DNA of 64,000 nucleotides from Methylocystis sp. (lineage in GTDB: Bacteria; Pseudomonadota; Alphaproteobacteria; Rhizobiales; Beijerinckiaceae). Made by a program: the position numbers and the translations under genes. The notes beneath the pieces were generated by a model, which was not told the DNA's origin, searched no databases, and worked only from the letters and a program-made list of their open reading frames with translations. This document shows, piece by piece, positions 33,427 through 55,418 of the stretch (position 1 is the stretch's first letter; every line of letters starts with the position of its first letter). The stretch covers positions 1 to 64,000 of the forward strand of contig PERY01000014.1 of NCBI GenBank assembly GCA_002929055.1. Reading direction: 5' to 3'.

Positions 33427-33816
33427 TCATATTGTCGGCGTCATCCAGGCGACGACGGCGCCGCCGGGCTCCTGCAGCACAGCCATGCGGCCGACGCCCG
33501 GAATGTCGAAGGGCGCCTTGCAGCTCTTGGCGCCGGCGGCCACAGCCTTGTTGAGACGTGCGTCCACATCGTCGACGCCGATATAGGTCAGCCAGTGCTC
33601 GGGCACGCCGTCGAACTCCGGCCCCTTCATCTCGAAAAGCCCGCCGACGCGCGTCGCGCCTGACAGGATGATCCAATAGGTGAAACCCTCCATTGGCATG
33701 GCCTCGAAGCGCCAGCCGAGCGTCTCCGCGTAGAAGTTCCTGGCGCGCTCCATGTCGCGGACGTTGAGTTCGCTCCAGCAGACGACGCCGTGCGGCGCGA
33801 GATGTTCATCGGCCAT
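33427..33816 (-). CDS. VOC (glyoxalase/bleomycin resistance) superfamily protein
   Basis: 129 aa with the paired beta-alpha-beta-beta-beta modules of the vicinal-oxygen-chelate fold: VCWSELNVRDMERARNFYAE, then LGWRFEAMP, and later HWLTYIGVDDVDARLNKA with the end PGGAVVAWMTP. This subgroup resembles lactoylglutathione-lyase-related proteins of unknown substrate (the 27-kDa antigen CFP30B-like group). It overlaps the preceding SDR gene by 11 bases and is probably cotranscribed with it. Confidence 0.85.
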   Translation of the reverse strand: MADEHLAPHGVVCWSELNVRDMERARNFYAETLGWRFEAMPMEGFTYWIILSGATRVGGLFEMKGPEFDGVPEHWLTYIGVDDVDARLNKAVAAGAKSCKAPFDIPGVGRMAVLQEPGGAVVAWMTPTI

Positions 33817-34720
33817 GCGTTTCTCCTTCGTCGCTCTCCGCTCGCAATCTATCGCGCATGTCGAGGAAGCCCAGACGACGGGCGGTGAGCCAGTCGATGA
33901 GCCGCATGGGCAGGAGGCCCGGCAGGGTCCAGCCGAGGAAACGGTTCTTCACCACCGGAATGCGTATGGGCGCGCGATGCGCCGTCAGCGCGCGCAGCAC
34001 GGCGTCGGCGACCATCTGCGGTCCGGGCGCGGCGCGGCCGCCCTCCACCGCCCATTTCTGCACGCGCCGCGCGGCAGCGGCGTAGATCGTGTCGTCGAAG
34101 GCGCTGAAGTCGACGCTCTCCGCCTTGTCCCAGATGGGCGTCGCAATCATTCCGGGCGCGATGAGCACGACGTCGATCCCGTAAATCATCAGCTCGCGCC
34201 GCAAGGCGTCGGACATGCCCTCGAGCGCGAACTTCGAGGCGTTGTAGGCGCCAAGAAAAGGCGTGGCGAAACGGCCGGCGACGGAGCTCATGTTGACGAT
34301 GCGGCCGGGGACGCCGCCCTGCGGCCGGCGCGCGCCCAGCAAGGGCGCGAAGGCCTGCGTGACCTGCAATTGCCCCACGAGATTGGTGTCGATCTGACGC
34401 TGGAAATCCTCGACTGGCAGATGCAGCAAAGGCCCCGGCACAGCGATGCCGGCGTTGTTGACGAGGCCCGCCAGCGTCTTTCCTTGCAGCCAGTCCTCGA
34501 CTTCCCGCGCGGCGCGGGCGATCGCTCCCGCGTCGGTCACGTCGAAAAGGAGCGGGGCATAATTCTCGCCGTAGCGCTCCTTCAGCCGCTCGGCGTCCTG
34601 CGTCTTGCGCACAGAACCGAAAACAAGGAAACCGCGTTCGATCAGCGTCGCGACGCAGGCTTCGCCGATGCCGGTGGAAGCGCCGGTGACGACGACGGCG
34701 CGCTTCAATTCACTCTTCAT
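33806..34720 (-). CDS. Short-chain dehydrogenase/reductase
   Basis: 304-aa classical SDR. NAD(P)-binding TGASTGIGEA at about 13-22, the NNAG motif (LVNNAGIAVPG), catalytic Ser in VNMSSVAG and the YxxxK pair in YNASKFALEG are all intact. The C-terminal extension (about 250-304) with RFLGWTLPGLLPMRLIDWL is hydrophobic and suggests membrane association. Substrate unknown. It overlaps both neighbours by a few bases (ThiE-amidase fusion upstream, VOC gene downstream), so the three may form one transcript. Confidence 0.9.
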   Translation of the reverse strand: MKSELKRAVVVTGASTGIGEACVATLIERGFLVFGSVRKTQDAERLKERYGENYAPLLFDVTDAGAIARAAREVEDWLQGKTLAGLVNNAGIAVPGPLLHLPVEDFQRQIDTNLVGQLQVTQAFAPLLGARRPQGGVPGRIVNMSSVAGRFATPFLGAYNASKFALEGMSDALRRELMIYGIDVVLIAPGMIATPIWDKAESVDFSAFDDTIYAAAARRVQKWAVEGGRAAPGPQMVADAVLRALTAHRAPIRIPVVKNRFLGWTLPGLLPMRLIDWLTARRLGFLDMRDRLRAESDEGETHGR

Positions 34721-36117
34721 GCAAGCCCCTCACGCGCCAGAAGCCGCGCCAGAACGTCGAGCGTCGATGCGTCGGCGCGGCCGTCGACCCGCGATCTGCG
34801 ATAATGCCGCTGAAACGCCGCGACGACCGCGACAGTATCCTCGTCATAGACGCCGCTTTGCGCGATTTTATAGCCGAAGCTGGCAAGCTGGCCCTGCAGG
34901 CGGGAAACGTCTTCGCCAGCGCAATCGGGCTCGAGCGGCCGCTCCTCGCGCATCGGCAACATCATCAAGTCACGTCCGACCCCCGAGGCGGCGAGCGCGT
35001 CCCAGGGGAAAAATTCGCCCGGATCGATCTTGCGGCGCGGCGCAATGTCGGAATGGGCGAGCACGCGTTCGGGCGCAATGTCCCGGCGCGCGCAAATGTC
35101 TTTCGACAGCGCGATCACGGACGCGATCTGCGCGGGGGGATAGGGCCGCGGATCGATATGGCCGGGATGCACGATCTCTATGCCGATGGAGGCGGAGTTC
35201 ATGTCAGTCTCGCCGGCCCAGTAGCTTGCGCCCGCATGCCAGGCGCGGCGCTCTTCGGGAACAAGCTGCAGGACGCGGCCGTCCTCTTCGACGACATAGT
35301 GAGCGGAGACTTCCGCAATGGGCGAGCAAAGCAGCTCCAGCGCGCTCTCGGCCGTCGGCATGCCGGTGTAATGCAGAACGAGCGCGGAGATGGGCTTTGC
35401 GCGAGGCCCGTGGTTGGGCGAGGGGAAAACCTTCGCTCCTGCATGATCGGGCGCAAAGCTCCGCGTGAGTTCGGGCGCGTTGCGCCAGGGCGTCGTCGCG
35501 GCGATCCATTCGACGCTTCGCGCCTCGGGATCGGCCGCGCGCAGAATATCCGTCACCACGCAGGCGCTGTCGGCGCCCGCCGCAAGCGCAAGGCAGGCGC
35601 GGTTCGGCGTCAGTCCGCCAATCGCGACCAGCGGAAGGCCGCCGATGCGCTTCTTCCAGATCGCGAGTTTTTCGAGCCCCTGCGGCGCGAATTTCATTTG
35701 CTTGAGCAATGTCGGCCAGACGGGGCCAAGCGCGACGTAATCGGGCGAAAGCGAGAGGGCGCGCTCCAGCTCCGCATCATTGTGAGTCGAAACGCCGAGC
35801 TGCACCCCGTGACGGCGCAGCGCCGCAATGTCGGCGCGATCGAGATCCTCCTGCCCCAGATGCACGAAGTCGCAGCCTTCGTCGATCGCGAGCTTCCAAT
35901 AATCATTGACGACGAGCTGCGCGCCAGCCGCGCGGCAAAGATCGCGCGCGCGAATGATCTCGTCTCGCACTTGCGACTCGGGCCTGTCCTTCACGCGCAA
36001 CTGCACGAGCTTCACGCCCAGCGGCAGAAGGCGCGCGAGCCAGTCGGCGTTATCGACAATGAGATAAAAGGGGTCCAATCTCAGCGCCTCCATTTCGTCC
36101 GAACGCGTGGAAGCCAT
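34717..36117 (-). CDS. Fusion protein: thiamine phosphate synthase (ThiE) + AmpD/AmiD-like amidase + peptidoglycan-binding domain
   Basis: One uninterrupted 466-aa frame from ATG 36117 (CGGAGCG upstream; the frame is open to 36237). Residues ~8-215 are a full ThiE: KLVQLRVKDR, VNDYWKLAIDEG, VHLGQED, GVSTHNDAELERAL, DYVALGPVWPT and VAIGGLTPNRA. Residues ~230-385 are an Amidase_2 domain: PSPNHGPR, LVLHYTGMP (Zn His), AWHAG, IGIEIVHPGH and VLAHSDIAPRRKIDPG (Zn His and Asp). Residues ~400-460 are PG_binding_1 (VSRLQGQLASFGY, AVVAAFQRHYR). No in-frame ATG/GTG/TTG lies at the junction, so a separate amidase start is not available. ThiE joins HMP-PP and thiazole phosphate; the amidase would cleave muropeptides in the cytosol (no signal peptide). 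Confidence 0.88.
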   Translation of the reverse strand: MASTRSDEMEALRLDPFYLIVDNADWLARLLPLGVKLVQLRVKDRPESQVRDEIIRARDLCRAAGAQLVVNDYWKLAIDEGCDFVHLGQEDLDRADIAALRRHGVQLGVSTHNDAELERALSLSPDYVALGPVWPTLLKQMKFAPQGLEKLAIWKKRIGGLPLVAIGGLTPNRACLALAAGADSACVVTDILRAADPEARSVEWIAATTPWRNAPELTRSFAPDHAGAKVFPSPNHGPRAKPISALVLHYTGMPTAESALELLCSPIAEVSAHYVVEEDGRVLQLVPEERRAWHAGASYWAGETDMNSASIGIEIVHPGHIDPRPYPPAQIASVIALSKDICARRDIAPERVLAHSDIAPRRKIDPGEFFPWDALAASGVGRDLMMLPMREERPLEPDCAGEDVSRLQGQLASFGYKIAQSGVYDEDTVAVVAAFQRHYRRSRVDGRADASTLDVLARLLAREGLA

Positions 36118-36155: not shown

Positions 36156-37268
36156 ATGACGCAGCAGTCCGAATTTCCTGGCGTCTTCGTGGATGACCCC
36201 CCTGCCCCGACTCGGCCGGTCGTTCCGGCTGCGACATCAGTGGCCCTGTTTATCGGGCGCGCGCCGCAAGGGCCTTCGCAGCCTACGCCTGTCGCGGCTC
36301 TCGCCGAGATTGAACGCGCCTATGGCGCGAGCCCCACGATTTTTTTCACCAGCCTGCGCGCGTTTTTCGAGAACGGCGGACGCACGGCAGTCGTCCTGCG
36401 TCTCGACGCTCCGGAAGGGGATTCGGCGGCCTTTCTCGCGGCGCTGGCCGCAGCCGTTGCAGAGGGCGGCGCGGCTGACGCCGTTGCTTTCAACCTTATG
36501 TGCGTTCCCGGCCTCGTCGAGCCGCCGGCGATCGCGCCGCTGCAGGCTTTTTGCCGACGCAAGCGGGCGTTTCTCATTCTCGACGCACCCGCGCAAGCGA
36601 CGATTCAGGACGTCTTGCAGACGCTGCCCATGATCGCCGGGCCTGACGCGATGAATGCGGCGCTCTACTATCCCTGGGTTGAGACGGCGGCGGGTCCGTC
36701 GCCGCCCTGCGGTTTCGTCGCGGGGGTCTATGCGCGCACGGACCAGACGCGCGGCCTGTGGAAGGCCCCGGCCGGCCTGGAAGCTTCGCTCGCCGGGGCC
36801 ACGGGACTGGAGCGGACGCTCACTGACGACGAAAACGGCGTGCTGAACCCGCGCGGTGTGAACTGCCTGCGCGGCTTCCTCAATTCTGGGATCGTCGTCT
36901 GGGGCGCGCGCACGCTTCATGGCGACGACGGCCGCGGATCGGACTGGAAATATGTCCCTGTCCGCCGCATGGCGCTCTTCATTGAGGAGAGCCTCGCCCG
37001 GTCGCTGCAATGGACGGTTTTCGAACCCAATGGCCCGCAACTCTGGCAATCCATCCGGCTGACGGTCGGCAGCTTTCTGCAAGAGCTTTTCCGACAGGGA
37101 GCCTTCGCAGGCCAGACTCCGAGGGACGCCTATTTCGTCGTCTGCGACGCTGCGACGACGACGCAGACGGATGTGGATGCGGGAATCGTCAATCTGCAGG
37201 TCGGCTTCGCGCCGCTGAAGCCCGCGGAATTCGTCGTGCTGCAGATTCAGTTGAAGGCGGCCGTTTAG
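36156..37268 (+). CDS. Orphan contractile-tail sheath-like protein
   Basis: 370 aa. N-terminus [20 protein letters not shown] and [12 protein letters not shown] match the sheath N-terminal arm pattern (YPGVYVEE...AFVGRA.GP); the middle keeps [14 protein letters not shown]; the C-terminal part [58 protein letters not shown] and AYFVVCD is the conserved sheath C-terminal domain. Shorter than typical phage sheaths, as in extracellular contractile systems. No tube, baseplate, spike or ATPase gene is in this window. It lies between, and opposite to, the thiG-thiS-thiO genes and the ThiE fusion, 38 bp from the latter's start. Confidence 0.85.
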
Positions 37269-38074
37269 CCGACCCCATCGAAAGGCCGCCCGATGACCGG
37301 CGTCGAGGGCTCGGCCATGTCGCGCGGCGTCATCGGCTTTGCGAGACAGGCGAGCCGCCCCGCCTCCACTGCAAGCCCGAAGGCGCGCGCCATCGCCACC
37401 GGATCGCCCGCGCGCGAGACCGCCGTATTCAGCAGCACGGCGTCATAGCCCATCTCCATCACCGTCGCGGCGTGGGAGGGCGCGCCTAGCCCCGCGTCGA
37501 CGACGAGCGGCACATCGGGAAAATGCGCGCGCAACGCACGCAAGGCGAAGGCGTTGTTGACGCCGCGGCCCGAGCCAATGGGCGCCGCCCAGGGCATCAG
37601 CACCTTGCAGCCGGCGTCGAGCAGCTTCTCGGCGACGACGAGATCGTCGGTGGTGTAGGGAAACACCTTGAAGCCGTCGTCGCAAAGCGCCCGCGCCGCT
37701 TCCACCAGCCCGAAAACGTCGGGTTGCAGCGTGTCCTCCTCGCCGATGACCTCGAGCTTGATCCAATCGGTTTCGAACACGTCGCGCGCCATCTGCGCCG
37801 TCGTGACCGCCTCCTTCGCCGTGCGGCAGCCGGCGGTGTTGGGCAGGACGCGCACGCCAAGGTCGCGGATGAGGCTCCAGAAACTCTCGCCCGCGCGCCC
37901 GCCGCCCGCTTCGCGCCGCAGCGAGACGGTCACGATCTCGCAGGCCGAGGCGCGGATCGACTCGGCGAGGATCGCGGGCGAAGGATAGCGCGCCGTGCCG
38001 AGCAGCAGCCGCGAACGCAGCGCCGCGTCGTAGAGCGTCAGCGGATCGGCCGCAATTTCGGGATGAGCGTTCAT
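37265..38074 (-). CDS. thiG: Thiazole synthase
   Basis: 269 aa from ATG 38074 (a GTG at 38089 inside the thiS stop region is possible). TIM-barrel enzyme that makes thiamine thiazole phosphate from DXP, dehydroglycine and ThiS thiocarboxylate. [55 protein letters not shown] and [13 protein letters not shown] are all family signatures, and the Schiff-base Lys lies in IKLEVIG. It follows thiO and thiS directly and is the last gene of this riboswitch-controlled transcript before the convergent sheath gene, with a four-base overlap of the stops. Confidence 0.95.
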
Positions 38075-38081
38075 CTGCCTG

Positions 38082-38279
38082 TCATCCACCCTGCCTTGGC
38101 GTCACGATCTCCACGGCGTCGCCCTCGTGAAGGACGATTTTCTCGCGGTCCCTGTCGCGCACGAACTCCTGATTCAGCGCCGTGCCGACCTTCTGGTCCT
38201 CGAAGCCCAGTTCGCGCAACAGCGCTTCCAGCGTCGTCGCTTCCACCTCACGCGGGCGCCCGTTCACTTGAATTCGCAT
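38082..38279 (-). CDS. thiS: Sulfur carrier protein ThiS
   Basis: 65-aa ubiquitin-like carrier ending in the essential GlyGly (VTPRQGG). N-terminus [21 protein letters not shown]; the [20 protein letters not shown] stretch is typical. Its start lies 32 bases inside the 3' end of thiO, an unusually long overlap but common in this operon type. It donates sulfur to ThiG. Confidence 0.95.
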
Positions 38280-39258
38280 CCATGACCTCCGGGAAATGGG
38301 CGTCCTTCAGAATGACCTCGGCGGCCCGGCGCGCGAGCGCGGGAGCGAGCAGGAAGCCGTGTCTGTAGAGCCCATTGATATAGATCGTCCGCCCCCGACG
38401 GATAAGGCGGGGGAGATTGTCGGGAAAGGCCGGACGCAGGTCCGAGCCCGTCTCGACGACTTCCGCCTCGGCGAAGGCGGGGTGAATGGCGAAGGCGGAG
38501 TTGACGAGTTCCACCACCGAACGCGCCGTCACCCGCGCGCGCTCCTCGTTCTCGATCATGGTGGCGCCCACCATGAACAGCCCCTGCCCGCGCGGCACGA
38601 CATAGACCGGGCGGCGCGGATGCAGCATGCGGATGGGGCGAGCGAGCGAAACTTCCTCGCTGCGCAGGATCAGCATCTCGCCTTTCACGCCCCGCAGCCC
38701 CGGCAGCGCCTCGCGGGCGAGAAAGCCCCTGCAGTCGATGGTCCAGTCCGGGGCGGCCGGCAGCTTCTCGACCTCGACGCCAAAATGCTGCGCAATATTC
38801 TCCATCGCGGCGAGACGGTCCGAAAGGGCTCCGAGCGCCGCGCGCGGGTCGAGATGCGCTTCCTCAGCAAAGAAGAGCGCCGCGTCGAAGCGTCCGGCCA
38901 GATCGGGCTCGAGCCGCGCCACGCCCTCGGCGTCCAGCCGCTCGAAATGATTGGTGCGGCGGGCGAAATCGGAGAGCTCGGCGCGCTCGCGCGGCGCGGC
39001 GACGACAAGGCTGCCCGCGCGCGTCGCGACCGGAAGCTCGCGGGTCCAGAAGGCGAGCGCCTCCTGCCCCAACTCCGCGACCAGGGGCTCGGCGCTCTCC
39101 AGTTCGCACCAGGGCGCGATCATGCCGCCCGCGTAACGCGAGCAGCCGAGACCCGGCCCCGCCGCGCGCTCGACGAGCTCGACCTCGAGCCCGGCGCGCG
39201 CCAGCGCATAGGCGGCGCAAAGACCGGCGACGCCGGCGCCGATCACCCGGGCGCGCAT
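38248..39258 (-). CDS. thiO: Glycine oxidase, thiamine biosynthesis
   Basis: 336-aa FAD-dependent amine oxidase that turns glycine into dehydroglycine for ThiG. The dinucleotide-binding motif VIGAGVAGLCAAYALARAGL opens the protein; further marks are CSRYAGGMIAPWCE, GFLAREALPGLRGVKGEM and the C-terminal YINGLYRHGFLLAPALA. First gene behind the TPP riboswitch; use of ThiO rather than ThiH implies an aerobic pathway. No thiC gene is present in this window. Confidence 0.94.
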   Translation of the reverse strand: MRARVIGAGVAGLCAAYALARAGLEVELVERAAGPGLGCSRYAGGMIAPWCELESAEPLVAELGQEALAFWTRELPVATRAGSLVVAAPRERAELSDFARRTNHFERLDAEGVARLEPDLAGRFDAALFFAEEAHLDPRAALGALSDRLAAMENIAQHFGVEVEKLPAAPDWTIDCRGFLAREALPGLRGVKGEMLILRSEEVSLARPIRMLHPRRPVYVVPRGQGLFMVGATMIENEERARVTARSVVELVNSAFAIHPAFAEAEVVETGSDLRPAFPDNLPRLIRRGRTIYINGLYRHGFLLAPALARRAAEVILKDAHFPEVMDANSSERAPA

Positions 39259-39290
39259 GCCGCGCCTCTGACGAGATAAAGAGCGAACAC

Positions 39291-39419
39291 CATCCCTCCG
39301 CCAGCTTTGAACTGGATCAGGTTCGAAGGGTCGCCGCGCCCGGCGCCCAGACGCCCCCGCAGCCTCTCAGCCCCGTGACGGCGGAAAACGCTCACCGCCG
39401 CCGGGCGGGGCTCCCCCGG
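39291..39419 (-). promoter_or_regulatory. TPP riboswitch (THI element) controlling thiO-thiS-thiG
   Basis: On the minus strand the region shows the conserved THI-box: GGGGGAGCCCCG at the 5' side (39416 downward), GGGGCTGAGAGGCTG (about 39376-39362), then ACCCTTCGAACCTGATC (about 39334-39318) and the closing GGCGGAGGGA (39301-39292). The aptamer lies 33 bp before thiO and would shut expression when thiamine pyrophosphate is plentiful, probably by masking the ribosome site. Confidence 0.95.
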
Positions 39420-39544
39420 CGCGGGAAGAGTCGCGCGAAACGCCCGTCTGCGTCAAGCGCCACGCGGCGTCGGATGACGGTTCTATGGCGGTCGGAAGGG
39501 TTGCAAGACCGGCGGCGATAGACCAAGTTCATCCGCAACGATGA

Positions 39545-55207: not shown

Positions 55208-55225
55208 TGGCGTGTAGACTTCTTT

Positions 55226-55418
55226 GCGGGAGAGTCCGGTTCACGCCGGCGCCGAAGGCGAAACCGCCCCGGAAACGCTCAGGCCAAAGGACCGCAAAGG
55301 GGGCAGGACTCTGGAAAGCGACGCGGCGCTCTCGAGCGTTTCGTCCACCGAAGGGCGTAACCCGTCTCTTGAGAAAGAGGCGGGGAAATCTCTCAGGTCA
55401 CCGGACAGAGGGGGCGCG
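55226..55418 (+). promoter_or_regulatory. Tandem glycine riboswitch upstream of gcvT
   Basis: Two glycine aptamers in series. The first (about 55226-55320) opens GCGGGAGAGTCC and closes GGACTCTGGAAAGC, with the internal CGCCGAAGGCGAAACCGCCC loop. The second (about 55328-55418) shows ACCGAAGGGCGTAACC, a stem ending in GGCGGGGAAATCTCTCAGG and ACCGGACAGAGGGGG. This matches the cooperative tandem form that turns on the glycine cleavage genes when glycine is abundant. Confidence 0.95.

Follow-up and report, generated by a model that had tools for sequence, protein, structure and literature searches.

In Caulobacter crescentus, the amidase AmiR strips stem peptides off muropeptides but leaves intact sacculi uncut, and cells that lose it accumulate anhydro-muropeptides in the cytoplasm, according to the available sections of PMC13046382. 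Cytoplasmic muropeptides also accumulate when AmpD (Atu2113) is deleted in Agrobacterium (available sections of PMC13046382 and PMC9790009). Both of these enzymes stand alone, whereas the Methylocystis amidase described here has an N-terminal ThiE and sits behind thi genes. It has in common with Caulobacter AmiR an Amidase_2 domain and a C-terminal PG_binding_1 domain, in the layout by which the available text of PMC13046382 defines AmiR. The word "amidase" is absent from the main text, as far as available, of a survey on B-vitamin pathway fusions (PMC4921024), and a literature search conducted largely outside subscription journals yielded no publication on a ThiE-amidase fusion among the matches listed.

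Gene fusions are often taken as a sign that two functions belong together. In Methylocystis, two enzymes of unrelated pathways were fused, apparently once, and the fusion has been kept in most of the genus; a natural re-split provides a control. The locus offers a test case for whether conserved fusions always imply that functions are linked, or whether co-expression is enough to keep them. We consider it likely that ThiE::AmiR is a real, vertically inherited bifunctional protein of Methylocystis, with halves that act independently and an amidase that is made together with ThiE.

One reading frame encodes ThiE, an amidase and a peptidoglycan-binding domain

The window analyzed here is a stretch of 64,000 nucleotides from a Methylocystis genome, and all coordinates refer to it unless another locus is named. 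The fusion and its parts are as follows:

34717..36117, minus strand: thiE::amiR fusion ORF, 466 aa from the ATG at 36117
35545..36051, minus strand: ThiE domain (TMP-TENI, PF02581), Pfam, residues 63-231 of the 506-aa form, E 5e-46
35425..35481, minus strand: 19-codon junction (NAPELTRSFAPDHAGAKVF) between ThiE ...TTPWR and amidase PSPNHG
35014..35397, minus strand: Amidase_2 domain (Zn amidase, AmiR/AmpD-like), Pfam, residues 281-408 of the 506-aa form, E 4.6e-38
34750..34917, minus strand: PG_binding_1 domain, Pfam, residues 441-496 of the 506-aa form, E 8.6e-14

A sequence-only reading of this DNA had claimed a single-frame ThiE-Amidase_2-PGBD fusion with key residues intact in both halves and with no separate amidase start at the junction. 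All three claims are borne out: one frame of 466 codons carries the TMP-TENI, Amidase_2 and PG_binding_1 domains, each above its Pfam cut-off; the motifs of both halves are conserved in 31 fused proteins; and ATG, GTG and TTG are absent from all 19 junction codons in the window. The frame is also open upstream to an ATG at 36237, which gives the 506-aa form.

Against the NCBIfam equivalog NF000734 (thiamine phosphate synthase), the ThiE half scored 325 bits (cut-off 252), and it also passed the cut-off of TIGR00693 (151.2 bits; cut-off 145.1). Its best solved relative is the B. subtilis thiamin phosphate synthase, and it was aligned to 1G4T. The motifs QLR.K, ND, HLGQ.DL and GP..PT..K occur in all 31 fused proteins, GVSTH occurs in 29 (GISTH in the remaining two), and AIGGLT occurs in 29 (AIGGLS and AIGGLA in the remaining two); we take QLRxK, ND, GQxD, PT..K and GG to be the substrate and Mg motifs of ThiE. 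These matches point to an N-terminal half that would act as a thiamine phosphate synthase, using HMP-PP and thiazole phosphate. The same genome contains a second, distant TMP-TENI gene, so the fused ThiE is possibly not its sole ThiE; this gene aligned best to PRK06512, which likewise bears the name thiamine phosphate synthase, at 105.8 bits over a 168-aa stretch (cut-off 218).

The sequence-only reading had described the other half as an AmpD/AmiD-like amidase. More closely, its best solved relatives are AmpDh2 and AmiD and not classical AmpD; the score against the classical AmpD equivalog NF008758 (PRK11789) is 106.6, under the cut-off of 143, and the domain layout is that of Caulobacter AmiR. 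The amidase motifs HYTG, SIG-E and H...RK.D are present in 31/31 fused proteins, and HSDIAP.RK.DPG is present in 30/31, the remaining protein having HSDISPGRKRDPG. Among these motif residues are, presumably, the Zn ligands His/His/Asp and the catalytic Glu/Lys.

Judged by eye, the fusion begins with ThiE and not with a signal peptide. Of the 14 unfused relatives read, 13 have an ATG at most about 17 codons from the amidase core, which leaves no room for a signal peptide if this ATG is the start. No other Amidase_2 match was found in the window's own genome, and the fusion is the sole match in 11 of 23 genus genomes (own genome included; seven of these 11 are ≥97% complete), with an additional Amidase_2 gene in the other 12. 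A glycoside hydrolase 3 (NagZ family) gene was found in 6/6 genomes tried, which makes a recycling route for the amidase plausible. Based on the motifs and by analogy with the characterized enzymes Caulobacter AmiR and Agrobacterium AmpD, the C-terminal half would be a cytosolic Zn amidase that cuts stem peptides off imported muropeptides.

The fusion is conserved within Methylocystis

We searched the window's own genome and 60 relatives with the whole protein. Both halves were matched in a single frame in 31 of 37 genus genomes, and the 24 genomes of other families gave no such match. The 31 fused proteins from these 31 genomes are 31 distinct sequences, all single-frame. In a family-wide draw of 397 genomes, the fusion was present in 33/39 Methylocystis genomes. 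Of the 358 non-genus genomes in this draw, 348 had no match at E 1e-90, and the remaining 10, all from genus g448 (which includes Methylosinus sp. Sm6, Methylosinus sporium DSM 17706, and the MAGs FeB_33 and NC_groundwater_59), had matches at E ≤1e-90 to one half only or to halves that lie apart. Outside the genus, no fusion was found among the matches listed for an order draw of 397 genomes or in draws of 385 (class) and 398 (phylum) genomes. At most four candidates were scored per genome in the family, order, class and phylum draws, and the E-value limits were 1e-90 or 1e-95 in the family, class and phylum draws. A search of 72,556 plasmid records gave 765 with a match, none of which spanned 80% of the query at a single place.

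The fusion is kept in small genomes too, as in G008 (2.1 Mb, 98% complete). In genome G028, thiE, the amidase half and thiG are all without matches except weak ones; because all three are missing, G028 was not counted as unfused in the tree described below. ThiE::AmiR is a genuine, conserved fusion, found in no sampled genome outside Methylocystis. The sequence-only reading had proposed looking for the same fusion in more than one species and had allowed for homologues that always encode two proteins; within Methylocystis, the former is what we observed and the latter is not.

In the fused proteins, ...EWIAATTPWR is followed by 16 or 19 residues and then PSPNHG, the junction measures 16 or 19 codons in 31/31, and the sole length difference among linkers is exactly three codons. 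The window's own genome is a draft of 63 contigs, and such a frame could arise from a sequencing or assembly error that conceals a stop and a restart, as had been suggested earlier. However, the 31 distinct single-frame proteins include those of genomes assembled in 1-4 contigs (G002, G006, G009, G019, G021, G022 and G023). Because 31 genomes keep the frame and differ in linker length by exactly three codons, the fusion is neither chance nor base-call error; a base-call error at the junction is ruled out by these 31 proteins, and we give an artefact practically no weight.

One frame could still give two products, if the amidase were also made alone through internal initiation or linker proteolysis. 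Some ATG, GTG or TTG occurs in 7/31 linkers and CTG in 8/31, and at TD[IV]L, roughly 40 codons ahead of the amidase core, Leu is encoded by TTG in 23/31 fused genes, compared with 159 of 1396 Leu codons overall. However, 24/31 linkers, the window's among them, are without ATG, GTG or TTG, and no start codon is conserved in the linker across the 31 fused genes (commonest place, 5/31). At TD[IV]L the window itself has CTG, and no purine-rich Shine-Dalgarno stretch was seen by eye ahead of this position in the six genes read. The TTG excess is probably inertia, as two of the five unfused ThiE genes that have Leu at this site also use TTG, although it may mark an internal start elsewhere in the genus. 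We regard a separately made amidase as quite improbable, and we return to a single bifunctional protein in what follows.

Origin of the fusion

In unfused relatives (Methylosinus and a Methylocystis side branch), thiE and the amidase gene are far apart or on different contigs. In most of the unfused lineages read, thiO and thiG lie near or before thiE, and the unfused ThiE mostly has its usual stop, with C-termini such as ...EWLHATAEWRR (KS32) and ...EWIEATAVWRAGEPR (FeB_33). The unfused KS32 amidase begins MSFVPDYKSARVVPSPNHG at the nearest ATG and from residue 2 matches fused ...RSFAPDHAGAKVFPSPNHG; correspondingly, the fused sequence from SFAPDHAGA on aligns with the KS32 amidase minus its Met. 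A gene for a short-chain dehydrogenase (SDR) adjoins the amidase gene in five of six unfused Methylocystis/Methylosinus amidase loci. This alignment and the loci of unfused relatives indicate that thiE, at the end of the thi run, became joined to the amidase gene, the first of an amidase-SDR pair. Because the unfused relatives read keep the two genes at different loci, a rearrangement brought them together. The earlier suggestion of a lost stop between neighbouring genes is thus unlikely in the sense of long-standing neighbours.

The sole case of adjacent but split genes is G017 (X3_MetaBAT.1, a MAG; L056:6560-6620), in which a 37-bp deletion at the thiE/amidase junction gives two overlapping ORFs: the ThiE frame continues out of frame, and the amidase frame, with its own ATG, overlaps thiE. 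G017 is nested beside fused G005, inside the fused clade, with support 100 in the rpoB tree.

In an rpoB tree of 38 of 44 genomes (five had no rpoB match and the G020 fragment was excluded; G018, G034 and G435 contribute partial rows), one clade with UFBoot 100 unites G017 (re-split), G028 (locus missing) and 25 fused genomes, and 11 unfused genomes fall outside it. The fused genomes also form one clade in the amidase tree (support 100) and in the thiG+thiO tree (SH-aLRT 98). In the ThiE-only tree (199 columns; 10 unfused rows, with the bog906 ThiE, which is in pieces on two contigs, left out), Methylosinus and two relatives are nested among fused rows, so that two changes are needed, and one change is found in just 8% of bootstrap trees. 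Because one fused clade is not rejected by the ThiE data (AU p = 0.204), weak signal and an old thiE exchange are both possible; the conflict of the ThiE tree with the rpoB, amidase and thiG+thiO trees possibly reflects such an exchange. Overall, the trees make a single origin probable, with the fusion retained afterwards.

The simplest account of these data is an in-frame accident that happened once and was kept since both enzymes work and are needed. An ancestral rearrangement would have set the start of the amidase-SDR pair right behind thiE, the last gene of the thiO-thiG-thiE run. The stop of ThiE and the start codon of the amidase would then both have been lost, in an order of steps that we infer, to give the in-frame junction of 16-19 residues.

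Gene neighbourhood and predicted expression

The genes around the fusion, and the riboswitch ahead of them, are as follows:

33806..34720, minus strand: short-chain dehydrogenase (SDR), start overlapping the fusion stop (ATGA)
36156..37268, plus strand: phage-type tail sheath gene of 370 aa (PHROG tail sheath, E 3e-54), lying in the thiG-fusion gap
37265..38089, minus strand: thiG
38082..38279, minus strand: thiS
38248..39258, minus strand: thiO (glycine oxidase), TIGR02352 237.1 bits, just below the 250.8 cut-off
39275..39427, minus strand: TPP riboswitch aptamer (RF00059), 41.9 bits, E 6.4e-6, missed at the gathering threshold (54.3) and detected with an E-value threshold only

The SDR gene lies ≤23 nt behind the fusion in 23/23 loci, and of the 22 loci with thiG on hand, 20 have ≤120 nt separating thiG from the fusion. 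At the gathering threshold, a TPP riboswitch was found upstream of thiO in 5/10 relative loci (54.4 to 61.4 bits; L056 is a member of the fused clade), and by E-value it was found there in 5/5 fused loci tested (47.3 to 52.3 bits). With the riboswitch ahead and a short thiG-fusion gap, TPP control of the amidase is predicted for most of these loci. The amidase and the SDR behind it would be made together with ThiE, putatively under the TPP riboswitch where the operon is unbroken, and cell-wall recycling in Methylocystis is predicted to respond to thiamine.

In the window's own genome, the thi gene run is interrupted by the opposite-strand tail sheath gene, which has no match in any of 80 loci searched. 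The slot between thiG and the fusion is filled by >1.1 kb both in the window and, with a different gene, in L047, so this slot took inserts at least twice. Because the sheath gene splits thiG from the fusion, TPP control of the fusion is doubtful, and possibly lost, in the window's species. The gene at the thiG-thiE slot of L047, another Methylocystis (L047:4930-5955), is 341 aa long and by eye has the look of a PhyH-type dioxygenase. Elsewhere in the window, a glycine riboswitch was found at 55217-55304 on the plus strand (71.5 bits).

Maintenance of the fusion

Pooled Nei-Gojobori estimates of dN/dS were 0.19 (amidase), 0.20 (ThiE), 0.25 (PGBD) and 0.26 (linker), based on the 165 of 465 pairs with pS < 0.5, which are not independent of one another. 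These ratios indicate purifying selection on the linker as well as on both halves. An AF2 model of the fusion has a mean pLDDT of 88 and a pTM of 0.85 (fused model only), and the linker region is also predicted at high confidence. Using Foldseek on the predicted model, we matched the halves to ThiE and AmiD/AmpDh2 folds, in agreement with the sequence-based relatives. The pTM suggests that the halves are packed in a fixed pose.

Two natural cases bear on whether the halves need each other. Barring an assembly error, the fusion is not essential in G017, because two overlapping ORFs are found there; if the re-split is real, the halves are able to live apart again. In Methylosinus sp. Sm6 (L058:6001-7575, plus strand), a ThiE without a stop reads in frame into TrpA, and this single frame matches both TMP-TENI (E 9.6e-51) and Trp_syntA (E 1.3e-95). 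In-frame ATGs stand ahead of TrpA, so TrpA may have its own start, and the other nine of the 10 genomes of this genus have a normal ThiE stop. Because the thiE stop was lost more than once in the family, a permissive ThiE C-terminus is favoured over a special ThiE-amidase link, and thiE may simply tolerate such joins.

The fusion might instead have been selected for functional coupling, with one half controlling the other, for example if thiamine state acts on muropeptide turnover, or if ThiE oligomerisation and domain packing act on amidase activity. Retention in 33 of the 39 genus genomes, small ones such as G008 included, is in keeping with coupling, as are the purifying selection on the linker itself, the fixed domain packing that the pTM suggests, and the position of the amidase behind a TPP-riboswitch operon. 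In Caulobacter, moreover, recycling is inferred to have its bottleneck at the AmiR step (available text of PMC13046382). However, one genome (G017) re-split the gene, the thi run is broken in the window and in L047, and the Methylosinus ThiE-TrpA frame suggests that thiE joins need no link. To our knowledge, no metabolite is shared by thiamine phosphate synthesis and the muropeptide amidase. We therefore consider coupling unlikely; a version in which thiamine status, through the TPP riboswitch and the state of ThiE, sets the rate of peptidoglycan recycling while ThiE holds the amidase in a fixed pose seems to us slightly less likely still. In the bifunctional protein that we favour, the N-terminal half would form thiamine phosphate, the C-terminal half would trim the stem peptides of muropeptides, and the two reactions would probably run independently.

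Comparison with described systems

The ThiE half passes the equivalog cut-off for the alphaproteobacterial ThiE of the thiO-thiG-thiE run (NF000734), and the same gene order is found in relatives. It differs in that the Methylocystis ThiE is without the normal stop and the amidase follows. As in yeast THI6, PRK09517 and the Nudix-ThiE protein PRK08999, ThiE is part of a multidomain protein; however, the partners in THI6 and PRK09517 are thiamine enzymes by name, whereas the Methylocystis partner is a predicted peptidoglycan-recycling amidase.

In the ThiE-TrpA frame of Methylosinus sp. Sm6, as in the Methylocystis fusion, the ThiE stop is missing and the next gene is in frame. The Sm6 case differs in its partner (TrpA), in its in-frame ATGs, and in its occurrence in 1/10 genomes of the genus. 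E. coli AmiD and P. aeruginosa AmpDh2, the best solved matches of the Methylocystis C-terminal half in sequence and fold, are exported enzymes, whereas the Methylocystis protein has ThiE in front and not a signal peptide.
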